The notes under the pieces: model-generated
The model's input: the letters and a program-made list of their open reading frames with translations, nothing else
Told to the model about the DNA's origin: nothing
The model's database searches: none
Translations under genes and position numbers: made by a program
Shown: in pieces, positions 6,597 to 52,332 of the stretch
Layout of the letters: each line of letters opens with the position of its first letter
Position numbering within the stretch: the stretch's first letter is position 1
Source: Armatimonadota bacterium
GTDB taxonomy: Bacteria > Armatimonadota > Fimbriimonadia > Fimbriimonadales > Fimbriimonadaceae
Length of the DNA stretch: 64,000 nucleotides
Direction: 5' to 3'
Assembly (NCBI GenBank): GCA_016223145.1
Contig: JACRPN010000001.1
Coordinates: 166,325-230,324 of the forward strand

Positions 6597-6730
6597 ACTG
6601 GATAAGGTACCGCGGAAACGCGCAAGTTAAGTGAGAGTTGTAGGAATGGTGAGAATTGTGAGCATTGTCCGGGCCCAATCTCACCAATCTCACCACTCTC
6701 ACCATTCTCACCATTCTCACCGCTCGCACC
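6597..6730. repeat. Inverted TCTCACCATT-type repeat in the atpZ/recG divergent spacer
   Basis: The spacer between atpZ (minus) and recG (plus) is largely repeat. The left arm 6631-6662 reads GTGAG...AATGGTGAGAATTGTGAG. The right arm 6681-6721 is a run of CTCACC(A/A)(T/C)T units on the same strand. Together they form an imperfect palindrome of about 90 bp that would fold as a long hairpin. The same word occurs at 2734-2770 and 3216-3252. Promoters for both genes must lie here, but no clear -35/-10 pair stands out. Confidence 0.75.
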
Positions 6731-8830
6731 ATGTCCTCCGCCCCCGGACCTCATAAACGCACACTGGACGACGAGATTCAGTATCTGAAGGGCGTCGGAC
6801 CCAGGAACGCAGGCCTGCTCGCAAAGGTCGGCATCAAGACCGTTCGCGACATTCTGTTCCACCTCCCCAGGCGCTATGAGGACAGGACCAAGCTCCCCAA
6901 GATGCAGAGCCTGCGCTCCGGCGACGTGGTGACCGTGCGCGGAAAGCTCCTCGGACTGGAGACCAAGCAGGTGCGCGGCGGGATGGTGATTCTGCGCGCC
7001 GTCATCAGCGATGGCACCGGCACGGTCGGGCTCACTTGGTTCAACCAGCCCTGGGTGAAGAAGGCGCTCGAGGGGTTCAAAGGCGAGATCATCGCTTTTG
7101 GCCAGGTCAAGGAATCCGGCTGGACCTACGACATCAACAGCCCCGAGTACGAAAAGGTCGATCCTGAGGATGAGGCCGAGGGGTTTCAGCGGATCATGCC
7201 CGTGTACCCGCTTAGCGAGGGCCTCCCGCAATGGGTGGTCCGAAAGGCTGCCGTGTCTGCCCTGCAGACCCACGCGGAGCTCCTGGAAGAATCGCTTCCT
7301 GCAGCCATCCAGCGGACCCACGGCCTCATGTCCCTCGAACTTGCCATCCAGCGTGTCCACCGGCCCGAGAGCCTTGAGGACGTAGACGCGGCACGGCGCA
7401 GGATGGTCTTCGAGGAGTTCCTGTGGCTGCAACTTGCGCTCGGCATGAAGCGGAACGAGACCCACCGCGAATCTGGCGAGCCGTTCCCGATCTCGAAGAT
7501 GGAGGGGCTTTGGGACGAGATTCACAGGATGCTTCCGTTTGAGCTAACCGGGGCGCAAAAGCGGGTCATCGGCGAGATCTTCTCCGATCTGGAGGCGCCA
7601 TTCCCGATGAACCGATTGCTGCAAGGCGACGTCGGGTCGGGCAAGACCGCCGTGGCGGCAGCGGCGATGCTTGCCGCGGTCCGGTGCGGCTATCAGGCGG
7701 CCCTCATGGCGCCAACCGAGATCCTCGCCGAGCAGCACCGGATGAATCTGGAGAGCCTCTTTGCGCCGCTGGGGATCGAGGTGGCGCTCTTGGTGGGCAG
7801 GCAAACCTCCACGGAGCGAAGAAAGGCCCTGGCGCACACCGAAACGGGCAAGGCCGGCATCGTGATCGGCACCCATGCCCTGATTCAAGAAGGCGTCCGT
7901 TTCCACAAGCTGGGTTTCGTCGTGATCGATGAGCAGCATCGCTTTGGCGTTCTGCAGCGGGCGGCCCTCAAGGAAAAGGGGTACGGCAACCCTGACGTGC
8001 TGGTGATGACGGCCACGCCCATCCCCAGAACCCTGACCATGACCCTTTACGGCGACCTCGATGTGAGCGTCATCGACGAACTGCCGCCGGGGCGAAAGCC
8101 GATCAAGACGCACTGGAAGGTGCGCTCGGAGCGCGATTCGGTCTATGAGGGAGTGCGAAAACTCATCGAGGGTGGCCGGCAGGCGTACATTGTGTGCCCT
8201 TTGGTGGCCGATAGCGAAAAGATGCTCGCCCAAGCCGCCGAAGATTTACATTACAGGCTTACGCATGAAACCTATCCAGATTTTGCGGTAGGGTTGCTGC
8301 ACGGCCAAATGAAACCCAAGGAGAAGGACGACGTGATGGCACGGTTTCGGGCGGGCGAGGTCCAGGTCTTGGTGAGCACTACTGTTATCGAGGTGGGGGT
8401 CGACGTGCCGAATGCGAGCGTGATGGTCGTCGAAGACGCCAACCGCTTCGGCCTTAGCCAGCTTCACCAGCTTCGTGGAAGGGTGGGTAGAGGCTCGGCG
8501 CAGAGCTTCTGTGTTCTGCTAGGCGACGGCCGGACCGAAGACGCCCAGGCCAGGCTGAGCATTATGTCGGAGACCACCGACGGCTTCAGGATCGCAGAAG
8601 AGGACCTGAAACTCAGGGGTCCCGGTGAGCTTCTTGGAACCAAGCAAGCGGGCAGTCTGGGCCTAAAAGTGGCCGACCTCTTAAAGGACGGCAGGGTGCT
8701 TGAGGAGGCTCGTCAGGCGGCGATGCGAATCCTTGAGAACGATCCCGGACTCTCACAACCGGATCACGCAGCGCTTCGCGAAGGCATGCTGCGACTCCAA
8801 CCCGAACGCGCCGCCGTCATCACATCCTGA
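6731..8830 (+). CDS. recG: ATP-dependent DNA helicase RecG
   Basis: Superfamily 2 helicase that remodels stalled replication forks and Holliday junctions. It begins with an N-terminal wedge/OB domain (LPKMQSLRSGDVVTVRGKLLG). The helicase core follows: Q-like motif PFELTGAQKRVI, Walker A GDVGSGKTAVA, motif II DEQHRFGVLQR, then MTATPIPRTL, TTVIEVGVDVPNA and the arginine finger region QLRGRVGRG. The ATG at 6731 gives 699 residues, a normal RecG size. An open frame continues upstream to a TTG at 6665, but those 22 codons translate the CTCACC repeat (NLTNLTTLTILTILT), so I exclude them. It is transcribed away from the ATP synthase operon. Confidence 0.97.
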   Translation: MSSAPGPHKRTLDDEIQYLKGVGPRNAGLLAKVGIKTVRDILFHLPRRYEDRTKLPKMQSLRSGDVVTVRGKLLGLETKQVRGGMVILRAVISDGTGTVGLTWFNQPWVKKALEGFKGEIIAFGQVKESGWTYDINSPEYEKVDPEDEAEGFQRIMPVYPLSEGLPQWVVRKAAVSALQTHAELLEESLPAAIQRTHGLMSLELAIQRVHRPESLEDVDAARRRMVFEEFLWLQLALGMKRNETHRESGEPFPISKMEGLWDEIHRMLPFELTGAQKRVIGEIFSDLEAPFPMNRLLQGDVGSGKTAVAAAAMLAAVRCGYQAALMAPTEILAEQHRMNLESLFAPLGIEVALLVGRQTSTERRKALAHTETGKAGIVIGTHALIQEGVRFHKLGFVVIDEQHRFGVLQRAALKEKGYGNPDVLVMTATPIPRTLTMTLYGDLDVSVIDELPPGRKPIKTHWKVRSERDSVYEGVRKLIEGGRQAYIVCPLVADSEKMLAQAAEDLHYRLTHETYPDFAVGLLHGQMKPKEKDDVMARFRAGEVQVLVSTTVIEVGVDVPNASVMVVEDANRFGLSQLHQLRGRVGRGSAQSFCVLLGDGRTEDAQARLSIMSETTDGFRIAEEDLKLRGPGELLGTKQAGSLGLKVADLLKDGRVLEEARQAAMRILENDPGLSQPDHAALREGMLRLQPERAAVITS

Positions 8831-39682: not shown

Positions 39683-40900
39683 ATGTTTCTTGCGGTTGGT
39701 CTTGGGTTCGTTGTGTCTCTCTTTGTTGTCGCACCCAAGCCCCTTCACATCGAAGGAACCCAGGTCGTCGATTCCGGCGGCCGGCAAGTGGTACTTCGCG
39801 GGGTCAACGTGGCGTCCCTCGAGTGGTCGAGCGATGGCGAGGGCCACGTGCTGAAAACCATCGAGGTCGCCATCAAGGACTGGAAGGTTAACCATATCCG
39901 GCTGCCGATGAGCCAAGATCGCTGGTTTGGCAAGGCCCCGGAGCAGAAGGACGGCGGCAAATCCTATCGCAAGCTGGTGGACGAATGCGTCCAGCTTTGT
40001 TCCAAGAATGGGGTCTATATCATGCTGGACCTGCATTGGAACAGCCCGAACGAATGGGGCAAGCACATCGGCCAGCACTTCATGCCGGATATGTTCAGCG
40101 TGGACTTCTGGAAAGACGTCGCGAAGGTCTACAAGAACCATCCGGCCGTGCTCTTCGACCTCTACAACGAGCCGCACGACACGACTTGGGAGATCTGGAA
40201 GAACGGCGGCACGATCGACGAAACGCGGGGCGTCGGTGCACGGCAAGGGAGGTTCACTCCGATCAAATACCAGACCCCCGGCATGCAGGCCCTGGTGAAC
40301 ACCGTGCGTGCGACCGGTGCAAGGAATCTATTGGTTGTCGGCGGCTTGGATTGGGCTTACGATCTCAAGGGGGTATTGGAGGGCTATGCGCTGACAGACC
40401 CGGGGGTCACGGATGCCCCTCGCCGGCACGGAACCGGCGGCTACGATGGGTTTGGCGACCTGCGCCGGCACGGAACCGGCGGCTACGCTGGGTTTGGCGA
40501 CCTGCGCCGGCACGGAACCGGCGGCTACGGGGATTCTCCTACTCGCTCCTCAGACCTCGGACCTCAGACCTCACACCTACCCGGCAACGGCATCCTCTAT
40601 GTCTGCCACAACTACCCGTTCAAAGGCGACACGTTCGAGACCTGGCTGGGCAAGATGAAGCGCTACACCGAGAAACTGCCGGTGATCATGAGCGAGTTCG
40701 GCGCTCAAAACCTCGGGAAGGCGATCAACGATCCGAACCCCTGGGTGGCGAACGTCCTGAGAGCCTGCAAGGAGAACGGCTGGATGTGGACGGCCTGGGA
40801 CCTTCATCCCGCCGCCGGTCCGACGCTGATTTCCGACTGGAACTACACGCCCACGCCGAGCTTCGGGAAACTCGTCAAGGAGGCGTTGGCGAAGAAGTGA
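39683..40900 (+). CDS. Glycoside hydrolase family 5 cellulase with a repeat array inside the catalytic domain
   Basis: 405 residues with signal-like MFLAVGLGFVVSLFVVA. GH5 TIM barrel: VVLRGVNVASLEW, NHIRLPMSQDRW, YIMLDLHWNS, acid/base Glu163 in DLYNEPHDTTW and nucleophile Glu338 in VIMSEFGAQN. It is expected to cleave beta-1,4-glucan or mannan outside the cell. Residues about 243-301 are an insert between barrel elements. Two full 14-residue units and a partial third of RRHGTGGY-type sequence (42-bp DNA repeats at 40421, 40463 and 40505) are followed by Ser/Thr-rich residues. Without it, TDP would join GNGILYVCHNYPFKGD as in normal family members. It converges with the esterase gene, 1 bp apart. 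Confidence 0.93.
   Translation: MFLAVGLGFVVSLFVVAPKPLHIEGTQVVDSGGRQVVLRGVNVASLEWSSDGEGHVLKTIEVAIKDWKVNHIRLPMSQDRWFGKAPEQKDGGKSYRKLVDECVQLCSKNGVYIMLDLHWNSPNEWGKHIGQHFMPDMFSVDFWKDVAKVYKNHPAVLFDLYNEPHDTTWEIWKNGGTIDETRGVGARQGRFTPIKYQTPGMQALVNTVRATGARNLLVVGGLDWAYDLKGVLEGYALTDPGVTDAPRRHGTGGYDGFGDLRRHGTGGYAGFGDLRRHGTGGYGDSPTRSSDLGPQTSHLPGNGILYVCHNYPFKGDTFETWLGKMKRYTEKLPVIMSEFGAQNLGKAINDPNPWVANVLRACKENGWMWTAWDLHPAAGPTLISDWNYTPTPSFGKLVKEALAKK
40421..40534 (+). repeat. Three tandem 42-bp palindromic repeat units inside the GH5 gene
   Basis: Units start at 40421, 40463 and 40505. The first two are complete and differ at one base (GATGGG/GCTGGG); the third diverges after CGGCTACG. Each begins CGCCGGCACGGAACCGGCGG, whose arms CGCCGG/CCGGCG form a stem around a 7-base loop. 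The period is a multiple of three, so the GH5 frame is kept. The following 40550-40580 (CTCAGACCTCGGACCTCAGA) is a second low-complexity run. Confidence 0.9.
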
Positions 40901-44329: not shown

Positions 44330-45220
44330 CTAAAAGGATAGCATATCAGCGTCTCTCTTTTCCAACGTCGCGCGCCAAAACAGGTCGGGGCGGTTTTGCC
44401 GTGTCGTTCGAAGCGATTGAAGGCGTTTCCATGTCGCTGCGCCCCCGTGGTCGCCGGATCGGAGAACCTCAGGAATGGTGGCACCTTGAAAGGTCTCCGG
44501 GTGGGTGAATTGCGGCGCGCTGAGAAGGCCGTCGAAGAAGCTGTCCTGCTCCAGTGAACCCGAGCAGCCGAGCACTCCTGGAAGCAGCCGAACGACTGCG
44601 TCCGCAATGGTGAGCGCAGGCAGTTCGCCCCCGGTCAACACGTAGTCGCCCATTGAAAAGACGTGCGTGGCGAGAAGCTGCCGGATGCGGTCGTCGATTC
44701 CCTCATAGTGTCCGCAGAGCAGGACGATTTGGTCCGTTTGAGCCAGCTCGTGGGCGTCGGACTGCTGGAACAAAGGTCCCGTCGGATCGGGTAGGACGAC
44801 GGCGACTCTCGATTTCGGATTTCGGATTACGGATTTCGGATTACGGATTGCGGATTGCGGATCGCGGATTGCGGATTGCGGACATGGGCTCCCCTCCCTT
44901 GTTTTTCGCGAAGCGGAAAATGAGGGAGGGGCTGGGGGAGGGAGACATACTGCCTCATCTTGATCTCCACCTTTCCATCCCTCCAAACTCCCCACAAGGC
45001 TCTCCACTGCGGCCCACACTGGCTCGCACTTCATCACCATGCCCGGCCCGCCGCCAAATGGGTCGTCATCGACCGTGCGGTGCTTGTCGTGGGTGAAGTC
45101 ACGCGGGTTGACGGCGCCGAACGCCACCAGGCCGCTCTCCTCGGCGCGCTTCATCATGCTGTGCCGGATGGCGGGCAGCACCATCTCGGGAAACAGGGTG
45201 ACGAAGTCGACGCGAAGCAT
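44330..45220 (-). CDS. trmD: tRNA (guanine-N1)-methyltransferase TrmD with repeat-encoded insertion
   Basis: Methylates G37 of tRNAs to prevent frameshifting; SPOUT knot enzyme, usually essential. 296 residues, against about 230-255 for the family. Conserved N-terminus [31 protein letters not shown]; knot motifs [26 protein letters not shown] and [16 protein letters not shown], then [20 protein letters not shown]. Residues about 79-137 are an insert in the loop before the first knot strand. It includes [12 protein letters not shown], encoded by the dispersed palindrome at 44891-44931, and four SAIRNP-like units encoded by CGGATTGCGGATT repeats (44812-44881). The reading frame is intact. Confidence 0.95.
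44812..44931. repeat. Composite repeat inside trmD: CGGATT tandem plus palindromic element
   Basis: 44812-44881 is about ten units of CGGATT(G/A/T)(C), for example CGGATTGCGGATTGCGGA. 44891-44931 is a palindrome with arms CCCCTCCCT (44891-44899) and AGGGAGGGG (44923-44931) around TTTTTCGCGAAGCGGAAAA. Its reverse complement shares CTTCG and AAAAACAAGGGAGGGG with the spacer copy at 52190-52224, showing that it is a dispersed element. Both parts are translated in the trmD frame. Confidence 0.85.
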
Positions 45221-50386: not shown

Positions 50387-51889
50387 TCAGTCGCCGTCGT
50401 TCTTGCTGCTGGGGCGGGTGCGCATTTCGGCCCAGGTGCGGAGTTCCTCGATCTCAGAGTCCATCATCACGGAGAGGGGAACCGTGGCCCCGGCTTCGGT
50501 CTTCAGGTCCTCGGTGGTGATGTCGCGCTTGGCATCATAGGCTGTGTAGAGCGAGCTCACGACCACCTGCTCGATCTCAGCGCCTGAGAATCCCTTGGTG
50601 GTTTTCGCCAGTTCTGAGAGCTTGAACTTAGAAACATCGCGCTTTCGCTTTTTGAGATGGATCTTGAAGATCTGCTCCCGCTCCTTTGCGTCGGGGAGGT
50701 CGACGAAGAATATCTCGTCGAATCGCCCCTTGCGGAGCATTTCGGGGGGAAGCTTGGTCACGTCGTTGGCTGTGGCGATCAGGAACACAGGCTTCGTTTT
50801 CTCCTGCATCCACGTGAGAAACGTGGAGAAAACGCGCGCCGTCGTGCCGGAATCGCTAACCCCCGAACCCCCGATTCCAGAGAAGCCTTTCTCCAGTTCA
50901 TCGGCCCAGAGGATGCAGGGCGCAACGGATTCGGCGATGCGGATCGCCCTGCGCATGTTTTCCTCGCTTTGGCCCACCAGGCTTCCGAAGATTCGGCCGA
51001 CGTCCATTTTGAGCATCGGCAGGTTCCAGTTCGCCGCGATCGCCTTGGCCACCAGCGACTTGCCGCAGCCTTGTACCCCGAGGAGCAGCACGCCCTTTGG
51101 CGCAGGAATGCCGAACTCCTTGGCCTTGTCGGTGAAGGCCTCCTTGCGCCGGCCCAGCCATTCCTTCAGAAGCTCCAGTCCGCCAACGTCTTCGAGCTTG
51201 TTCTCGGCGGGGTAGTACTCCAGCAGCCCCGATTTGCGCACGATCTGCTTCTTCTCTTCGAGGATGGCCTCCATGTCGAAGCGCCTCTTGCTGACCAGGC
51301 TGAGCGCGAAAACGTTTTCGATCTCGTCGCGCGTGAGTCCCTGGCTCGACTTGACGATGAGCTCGCGCTCCTGCTTCTTAAGCTTGGTGTCGAGCTTTGG
51401 GTCGTCCTTGACCGCTTCGATGACCTTGCTGAGCACTTCGTCGATGTCCTCGGCGTTGGGCAGCGGGAACTCGAGTACCGTCACATCTTTTTCAAGCTCG
51501 ACCGGGAGATTCAGCGTGGGCGCCAGCAGGATCAAAGTCTGGGCGCGGGTGCGCAGTCGGAAGGAAAGGTCGCGCAGCAGGCGCACGACGCGGTAGTCCT
51601 TGAGGAAGGCGTGGTAGTCGCGGAGGAGAAAAACCGTGCGTTCGGGCGCCTCGTGGATGAGTGCGAGCGCTTCGAGTTCGCCGGAAAGCGCCGAGGGCTT
51701 GTCGGGCCCGCTGGTGCGCTGCACCTGAGGGCGCATGCCCTGGGTGACCGACCATGTGTGCAGTTTGCGGCCGAGGTCCGTGCAGATTTTGGTGACGGCC
51801 TCCTCGACCCTTCGCTCTTCCCAAGAGACAACGTAGAGGATCGGGTACTTGGCCCGAATCAAAACCTCGATCTGCCCGGCTTCGTCCAT
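50387..51889 (-). CDS. AAA+ ATPase of the Ycf46 type
   Basis: 500 residues from the ATG at 51889 (MDEAGQIEVLIRAKYPILYVV). The N-terminal domain (1-240) has the RAKYPILYVVSWEERRVEEAV start and a degenerate P-loop-like part; the C-terminal AAA+ module has Walker A LLLGVQGCGKSLVAKAIA, Walker B PCILWADELEKGFSG and the arginine region RKGRFDEIFFVDLPD. This two-part layout and the ELEKGFSG signature match Ycf46/Slr0374 proteins, which are linked in cyanobacteria to carbon limitation and are of unknown molecular role. The longer frame to 52216 is repeat-encoded. Divergent from moaA. Confidence 0.88.
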   Translation of the reverse strand: MDEAGQIEVLIRAKYPILYVVSWEERRVEEAVTKICTDLGRKLHTWSVTQGMRPQVQRTSGPDKPSALSGELEALALIHEAPERTVFLLRDYHAFLKDYRVVRLLRDLSFRLRTRAQTLILLAPTLNLPVELEKDVTVLEFPLPNAEDIDEVLSKVIEAVKDDPKLDTKLKKQERELIVKSSQGLTRDEIENVFALSLVSKRRFDMEAILEEKKQIVRKSGLLEYYPAENKLEDVGGLELLKEWLGRRKEAFTDKAKEFGIPAPKGVLLLGVQGCGKSLVAKAIAANWNLPMLKMDVGRIFGSLVGQSEENMRRAIRIAESVAPCILWADELEKGFSGIGGSGVSDSGTTARVFSTFLTWMQEKTKPVFLIATANDVTKLPPEMLRKGRFDEIFFVDLPDAKEREQIFKIHLKKRKRDVSKFKLSELAKTTKGFSGAEIEQVVVSSLYTAYDAKRDITTEDLKTEAGATVPLSVMMDSEIEELRTWAEMRTRPSSKNDGD

Positions 51890-52332
51890 GCGGGTTGAAG
51901 GGTACCTGGGGGGAGCATGGAGGCAATAGGGCGTTGGGGCGTTATGGCGTTGGCCCTTGAGTGCATGAGGATGAATGAGGATGAGTGAGGGTGCATGAGG
52001 GTGGGGGGAGGGATGATGAGATGAAGGGAAGAAGGGACGGAGGGACGAAGGGACAGGGGGCGGGTTCTTTGGTGCGCGAGGACGCTGCGCTGCTGTTCCC
52101 CGAGTCTCCACCCCTCCCGACTTCGTTGCCCTCGCTACGCTCGGCGGGATCTGCGACAACCCCTCCCTTCCCGACAAGCCGGGACTCGGAAGCATTTTCG
52201 ACTTCGTCAAAAACAAGGGAGGGGCTCACCCATCATCCCATCATCGCTTTATCCCTTCACTGTAACTCACGCTCTTCCACCTGACCCCCGTCATAGACCG
52301 AACCTGAAATGCGTTCTACAATAGAGGACCCT
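51890..52332. repeat. 443-bp spacer: densest cluster of repeat families
   Basis: No gene supported. In order: heptads GGGCGTTGGGGCGTT (51923-51952), GAGGATGAATGAGGATGAGT words (51961-52004), GATGAGATGAAGGGA and GGGACGGAGGGAC words (52013-52060), TCGCTACGCTC (52131-52141), and an element with arms CCCCTCCCTT (52160-52169) and AAGGGAGGGG (52215-52224). The last element shares its right half with the trmD insert. Each family has a second copy elsewhere in the window. Confidence 0.75.

Follow-up and report, generated by a model that had tools for sequence, protein, structure and literature searches.

The tRNA methyltransferase gene trmD of an Armatimonadota bacterium carries a large insert that probably combines a heptanucleotide tandem with a hairpin element, each of a repeat family dispersed in the genome; both families sit in frame in permissive loops that are predicted to be disordered, and there they are likely translated and tolerated rather than removed. 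A repeat insert in this gene had been proposed in a first-pass annotation of the same DNA. The insert proved to be real and in frame, but the period of the tandem and the extent of a second palindrome had to be corrected. Positions given without a contig are those of the window, i.e. the whole stretch of 64,000 nucleotides that was analyzed. It belongs to a genome of 3.87 Mb in 23 contigs (G000), termed the own genome below.

Composition of the expanded TrmD loop

TrmD is a tRNA-modifying enzyme, and bacteria are normally not viable without it. The gene (44330..45220, minus strand; tRNA (guanine37-N1)-methyltransferase, 296 amino acids) was recognized by Pfam (PF01746, E 8e-54) and by its relatives in the PDB. 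It provided the sole full-length hit among four TrmD matches in the own genome. Two of the remaining matches were other frames of the trmD insert, and one was a hairpin-bearing 6-phosphogluconate dehydrogenase gene. The PDB alignments covered residues 2-75 and 139-294 and skipped residues 76-138 (44807..44995, minus strand). This loop comprises 63 residues here versus about five in most homologues, leaving about 58 extra residues. The earlier placement of the extra residues at about 79-137 agreed well with this result.

TRF reported a period of 7 with 10.3 copies and 90% matches at 44811..44882. The array consists of about ten units, which read GATTNCG on the plus strand and CGNAATC on the coding strand and are read as RNPQSAI-like repeats. 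The unit had been described as a hexamer, CGGATT, which is the 7-base unit minus its variable base. The 41-bp palindrome described earlier was found at 44891..44931. On the plus strand, antisense to trmD, it reads CCCCTCCCT...AGGGAGGGG; it is a short-form hairpin element and is read as 13 residues. Folded as RNA, the plus strand reached -31.4 kcal/mol versus -22.9 kcal/mol for the other strand.

An AlphaFold model built from 100 sequences (mean pLDDT 85.4) was used instead of a weak one built from 22 sequences (mean pLDDT 70.4). Ten-residue blocks of the core scored 80-98, and those of the insert, located between helix 65-76 and strand 137-144, scored 49-70. Top Foldseek matches of the model were TrmD structures, with 8byh as the best (TM 0.91 by target length). 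From the block scores and these matches, the TrmD fold is predicted to be intact and the insert to form a disordered loop, although the low pLDDT of the insert is partly due to the small number of aligned sequences that span it. The surface position that the first-pass annotation gave to such loops is that of the predicted model.

Dispersal of the heptamer and hairpin families

Both repeats were searched for in the whole own genome and, as had been supposed, both were dispersed. The heptamer pattern (2.5 units) gave 54 matches in 30 arrays versus four matches for the reversed pattern, and the palindrome was present in 13 copies by a strict and 14 by a looser pattern versus none in controls. 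Tandem 7-base units at many loci, above chance, place the former among the dispersed heptanucleotide tandem repeats.

Of the 30 heptamer arrays, 17 are part of ORFs and keep the frame, a count that comes partly from array-spanning ORFs and is biased towards kept frames; the other 13 were, in our judgement, sited between or beside genes. As read from the sequence, the heptamer occupies seven conserved genes, including trmD, and five more ORFs in frame. The conserved genes hold eight arrays, with matched protein on either side in Pfam and PDB alignments: trmD, dxs, miaB, moeB (ThiF-rhodanese), a uroD-like gene (two arrays), the class II ribonucleotide reductase gene, and rsmE. The five further long ORFs hold seven arrays and have a Pfam match on one side or none. 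They are a GH38 gene and a methyltransferase gene (a pair of arrays each), an esterase-like ORF, and L136 and L019, both without a Pfam match. Two arrays are close to N-termini, those of sufB and L133. The main infiltrator of genes is the tandem heptamer, which had been taken for a hexamer. Seven of the 13 arrays outside genes (L015, L016, L018, L122, L127, L129, and L130) are crossed by an open frame, possibly as an N-terminal extension, or as a short or unmatched ORF or the end of one. Among the scanned neighbors in the own genome, to which the split-gene check applied, there was no recognized case of a gene split by a heptamer array. The inserts often carry additional repeats, for example octamers in miaB and moeB, an inverted repeat in L136, and inverted GGCGAGA-like units in sufB. 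Octamers of the type GGGACNNA form a third dispersed family in the own genome, with 87 matches versus one for the control.

Several side observations concern related repeats. Opposite-facing GGGACNNA arrays also form convergent pairs, e.g. at C5:400831/401368 and C14:136938/137225 (as noted from the list of matches). L136 contains another inverted-repeat family in frame, read as GVRELARAF...SASKLAHSQT; similar peptides are present in L132 and in the MiaB homologue P0139, all of them unrelated proteins. A convergent heptamer pair (L012/L015, G000:C5:161563-162508) flanks nuoJ in the nuo operon, with one array in the gap after nuoH and the other in the gap before nuoK. In the window, a GH5 cellulase-like gene (39683-40900, plus strand) contains 2.6 in-frame copies of a 42-bp unit (RRHGTGGYDGFGDL) and after them a 7-base tandem; these repeats sit past the best Pfam stretch. 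The open frames of recG (6665-8830, plus strand) and of an AAA ATPase gene (50387-52216, minus strand) run upstream across short tandem repeats; these repeat-containing extensions are probably untranslated spacer.

Hairpin copies measure either 39-42 bp (short form) or 63-66 bp (long form), the latter with a second small hairpin added. Letters of the inner stem vary among copies and mostly still pair (CGC/GCG, GAC/GTC, and GCC/GGC; copy L033 is imperfect), as read from the copies and their folds; the nine-copy alignment A2 shifts the inner stem by one base. The 3' flank TTGGGG[AT]GGGAGAC is recurrent. RNA folds ranged from -25.9 to -35.2 kcal/mol, and in 14 of 14 copies the written strand folded better than the opposite one, on which wobble pairs turn into mismatches. 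The first-pass annotation had located a relative of the trmD palindrome at 52190-52224. A relative is indeed present there, but it is a 65-bp long form that spans 52160..52224 on the minus strand, in the spacer before a moaA-like gene (named by eye).

Three of the 14 hairpins are in frame in genes: those in trmD (antisense), in the 6-phosphogluconate dehydrogenase gene (sense; one flank matched by Pfam, the other assigned by eye), and in a murC-ddl fusion (antisense). The last of these, a long form (L031, G000:C13:158042-158106), separates two Ddl domains and is read as 22 residues. Another six follow a same-strand ORF, 8-21 bases past its stop codon, and four such ORFs have a Pfam match (RNase J, S1/P1 nuclease, AMP-binding, and glutamate-type dehydrogenase). 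Five are by our reading elsewhere between genes. Of 60 relatives, one (G001, same genus) contained the hairpin pattern. This copy, L137, the sole one in these relatives, lies in what by eye is an apparent out-of-frame remnant of uvrA.

The heptamer pattern was detected in 17 of 291 genomes of the phylum, including the own genome. The richest genomes had 54, 40, 34, 14, 12, 10, and 10 matches, ten more had 1-6, and the rest had none; in G015 and G019, which belong to the group with 1-6, the reversed control exceeded the pattern. Two genomes of the same genus had zero and one match. Of 20 loci fetched from five other genomes of the phylum, seven had in-frame arrays; the genes concerned were those for RlmN, RuvC, a FolC-like Mur ligase, an M16 peptidase, an AAA_23 protein, a sulfatase, and a glycosidase (in RuvC and the sulfatase, Pfam matched one side). 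In another genome of the phylum, Lgt has an array at its C-terminus. A contig scan with TrmD returned 44 loci, of which 43 were distant TrmD genes with 36-51% identity in the best segment. The remaining locus (L119), from a genome of the Verrucomicrobia (Chthoniobacteraceae), matched the repeat alone and proved to be an intergenic CGCAATC array. Thus, the heptamer is found in another phylum as well, and it could have been seeded independently in different lineages. The earlier view that this lineage has repeats of its own would fit the hairpin, which was detected in one of 60 relatives, but not the heptamer.

In trmD, palindrome and tandem adjoin, palindromes are dispersed, and two more of them are in frame (6-phosphogluconate dehydrogenase gene and murC-ddl fusion), as would be expected if the insert were a single Rickettsia-type palindromic mobile element that carried the tandem along. 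However, none of the 13 other palindrome copies had a heptamer array in its 60-base flanks, the flanks of heptamer arrays look unrelated by eye, and the TrmD proteins P0003 and P0004 contain an EGTEGRRD stretch and heptamer peptides without the palindrome peptide. We consider a single element improbable. One mobile unit with both repeats was dropped, as the two families are apart at most sites in the own genome.

The hairpin family might alternatively consist of REP elements moved by a RAYT (Y1 tyrosine transposase). The position of six of the 14 hairpins just past stop codons is a REP site according to section 15 of PMC3733652. The own genome has 12 Y1_Tnp matches, and such matches were somewhat commoner in heptamer-rich genomes (12, 7, 3, 5, 13, 0, 4, and 2) than in heptamer-poor genomes taken for comparison (4, 4, 4, 0, 3, 1, 0, and 7). 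Yet none of the 12 own Y1_Tnp loci had a hairpin within up to 1.5 kb, none of the 14 hairpin copies had a GTAG or CGTC tag in the flanks beside the stem, and G203 is heptamer-rich and has no Y1_Tnp. One of 39 Y1 loci had a heptamer in reach, namely the miaB array. This origin of the hairpins appears unlikely, and the own Y1_Tnp loci and the 39 Y1 loci checked do not support a role of Y1 transposase in the spread. Mobility, as claimed by the first-pass annotation, would agree with the dispersal and with the presence or absence of the repeats, but neither a carrier nor a transposase was found.

Turnover of the loops and the reading frame

Among 120 listed TrmD proteins including the query, the loop had 3-10 residues in 109 and 44-98 residues in 11, one of which is the query itself, and no lengths in between were seen. 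In relative genomes, the loop could be read in 31 of 60, and it had 4-14 residues in 29 of these 31; the insert is not a conserved trait of all relatives. The TrmD loop of G020 is about 33 residues long without an obvious repeat, and that of G059, from another family of the same order, about 36 residues (APSPPALLPQRGSGE...RGSGGEG); both contain neither heptamer nor hairpin. By eye, the extra residues of G059 TrmD (L230, G059:C117:1600-2650) look like a different palindrome read through. P0002, an independent metagenome protein with 93% identity (alignment A1), has the same palindrome peptide in the same place, and its tandem is shorter than that of P0001 by 14 residues, which equals the length of six heptamers.

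For MoeB, 34 of 120 listed proteins were compared. The loop has 66 residues here, 58, 17, 98, and 25 residues in P0242-P0245, and one residue in P0246 and in 28 further proteins. Outside the loop, identities were 100% (own), 91, 85, 83, and 83% (P0242-P0245), and 83% (P0246). The MiaB linker, compared in 51 of 120 listed proteins, seven of which were picked from lower in the list, has 119 residues here and ranges from 27 to 169 residues. In TrmD, MoeB, and MiaB, one loop carries other repeats, fewer units, or none in the sequences of relatives, with presence or absence judged from proteins with 83-93% identity outside the loop. As a separate observation at the protein level, the linkers of the MiaB homologues P0123, P0125, and P0139 contain PSLFERSENGEGVGGG, a peptide that resembles the translation of a hairpin built like the palindrome in the window.

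TrmD, MiaB, RsmE, and RlmN act on RNA, and the RNPQSAI unit has a basic residue. The inserts may be adaptive, for example by giving tRNA-modifying and other enzymes an arm for RNA binding or regulation. Against this, one and the same loop differs in content and length between relatives, and the targets dxs, ribonucleotide reductase, moeB, murC-ddl, glycosidases, and sulfatase have no common function. An adaptive role is therefore given little credence here.

Since 7 equals 1 modulo 3, the three frames of a given strand of a heptamer array all yield the same cyclic heptapeptide. Repeated CGCAATC encodes R-N-P-Q-S-A-I in every frame and GATTGCG encodes D-C-G-L-R-I-A, both without stops, so that only the total length of an array must be a multiple of three. 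Of the ORFs whose internal arrays were confined to a single strand, 14 of 14 (nine own and five from other genomes) had RNPQSAI in the sense orientation. This count excludes terminal arrays (L016, L018, L121, L122, L129, L130, L133, and L201), inverted-pair genes (L125, L126, L131, L190, and L197), and short or overlapping ORFs (L015, L017, L127, L182, L199, and L200). Terminal arrays were mixed, with RNPQSAI in L018, L121, L129, L133, and L201 and the opposite strand in L016, L122, and L130. Inverted pairs place both peptides in frame in five ORFs, showing that DCGLRIA is tolerated at times. The hydrophilic peptide RNPQSAI thus appears to be favored, and the other one not forbidden.

Opposite-facing neighboring arrays within 1 kb were convergent (GATTNCG...CGNAATC) in 12 of 12 cases; five neighbors were same-facing. 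Polarity was counted over 45 loci, 25 own and 20 other, with L015 and L018 omitted as duplicates of the pairs in L012 and L017. For G063 and G225 all listed places entered the count, and for G226 (3 of 6), G203, and G062 places were chosen, the G226 pair having been seen beforehand. By eye, the sequence between paired arrays varies among copies. Both strands of seven tested pairs folded better than mononucleotide shuffles (z -3.2 to -10.3), as is expected of inverted repeats. As to how copies might reach new sites, this constant polarity hints at template switching or at a hairpin formed in single-stranded DNA or in RNA.

Hairpins and inverted repeats occur in translational bypass elements, and they are frequent in the inserts examined here. 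The inserts might hence remain untranslated, through ribosome bypass or through removal by RNA or protein splicing. Bypass or excision needs neither a length divisible by three nor the absence of stops, whereas the arrays in recognized genes keep the frame and are stop-free. Moreover, the occurrence of single internal arrays on one strand in all 14 ORFs is as expected if the peptide matters. We regard this explanation as very improbable. An assembly or binning artefact is hardly credible: repeats often cause misassembly and the genome is in 23 contigs, but the loop of P0002, a protein of separate origin, holds this composite peptide too, other proteins have other repeats in the same loops, and the ORFs remain open. 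We infer from the kept frame of the sequence that the inserts would be translated.

Comparison with known systems and meaning of the repeats

Rickettsia palindromic elements (RPEs) are described as short, inserted in frame in many conserved genes, and solvent-exposed, with lengths of 105-146 bp; they are known from Rickettsia, with related ones in Wolbachia (PMC2229807, PMC3767692). The first-pass annotation had drawn the parallel to these elements, and it is borne out by in-frame siting in conserved genes, with dispersed, patchily distributed repeats and three of 14 palindromes in frame. RPEs and the repeats studied here have in common in-frame palindromes in conserved genes and possible hotspots with different elements per gene. 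In contrast to RPEs, hairpins of 39-66 bp occur here together with tandem heptamers and octamers, in another phylum, and the tandem is the main infiltrator. Length and host set the repeats apart from RPEs; among the few named TrmD relatives, most are called Fimbriimonadaceae.

GTAG/CGTC REPs are small hairpins, many of which lie past stop codons and some in conserved genes, e.g. Opitutus terrae uvrA (PMC3733652). The hairpins of the own genome likewise are small, many are directly past stop codons, and some are within conserved genes. They differ from REPs in that no GTAG/CGTC tag and no Y1 transposase were found nearby, and the tandem heptamer is not a REP. REPs inside uvrA as given in that source and the palindrome copy of G001 share an apparent location, the latter being in a uvrA remnant.

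Dispersed heptamers are on record as GGGNATC from Xanthomonas and Nostoc (PMC4692102) and TAACTGA from Beggiatoaceae and cyanobacteria (PMC4679880). They are reported to be mainly intergenic, with 7-11% intragenic in two xanthomonads and 68% intergenic in Nostoc. CGNAATC resembles them as a 7-base tandem unit that is dispersed in the genome and patchy across lineages. It differs in the in-frame siting of 17 of 30 arrays within ORFs and in the formation of several convergent inverted pairs. Unlike the G-quadruplex-type GGGNATC, the unit has GG runs and not GGG.

In nematomorph mitochondria, inverted repeats lie within coding genes and a functional protein is still made (PMC6649704); there, the palindrome arms encode conserved residues, whereas here they add extra loop sequence. 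PARCELs are described in PMC2996958 as dispersed tandem coding repeats with dyad symmetry and patchy distribution, properties that the present repeats share. PARCELs, however, form repeat domains in surface proteins, and some are carried on mobile elements, whereas the inserts studied here are in housekeeping enzymes. In the literature searched, which was mostly open-access, there was no precedent for core enzymes whose in-frame inserts are chiefly tandem heptamers.

The facts that bear on the mechanism are dispersal, the kept frame, turnover in fixed loops, pair polarity, and the strand preference of internal arrays. In the proposed mechanism, arrays would grow and shrink by slippage, selection would retain changes in multiples of three bases and would favor the strand that encodes the hydrophilic peptide, and loops that tolerate one insert may turn into landing sites or traps for others. 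Tentatively, and as a possibility rather than an expectation, the CGNAATC heptamer may be a phylum-spanning class of protein-coding repeat elements. The unit of such elements would encode one heptapeptide, free of stops, whichever frame of a strand is read. Opposite-facing arrays would fold into hairpins with GATTNCG always as the 5' arm and CGNAATC as the 3' arm, and in their spread among housekeeping genes the sense strand would be the one that encodes the hydrophilic peptide.

The known in-frame selfish palindromes are mainly those of Rickettsia and intragenic REPs. Here, a number of core enzymes have been entered by a tandem repeat, and the content of a given loop changes from relative to relative. 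For annotators, this means that RNPQSAI-like peptides in unrelated proteins are to be read as repeats and not as domains. The system makes it testable how foreign DNA turns into new protein sequence without lethality and whether stop-free repeats that are independent of frame gain an advantage. If the proposal is true, the loops of core enzymes would serve as a reservoir of DNA of a kind otherwise found mainly between genes.
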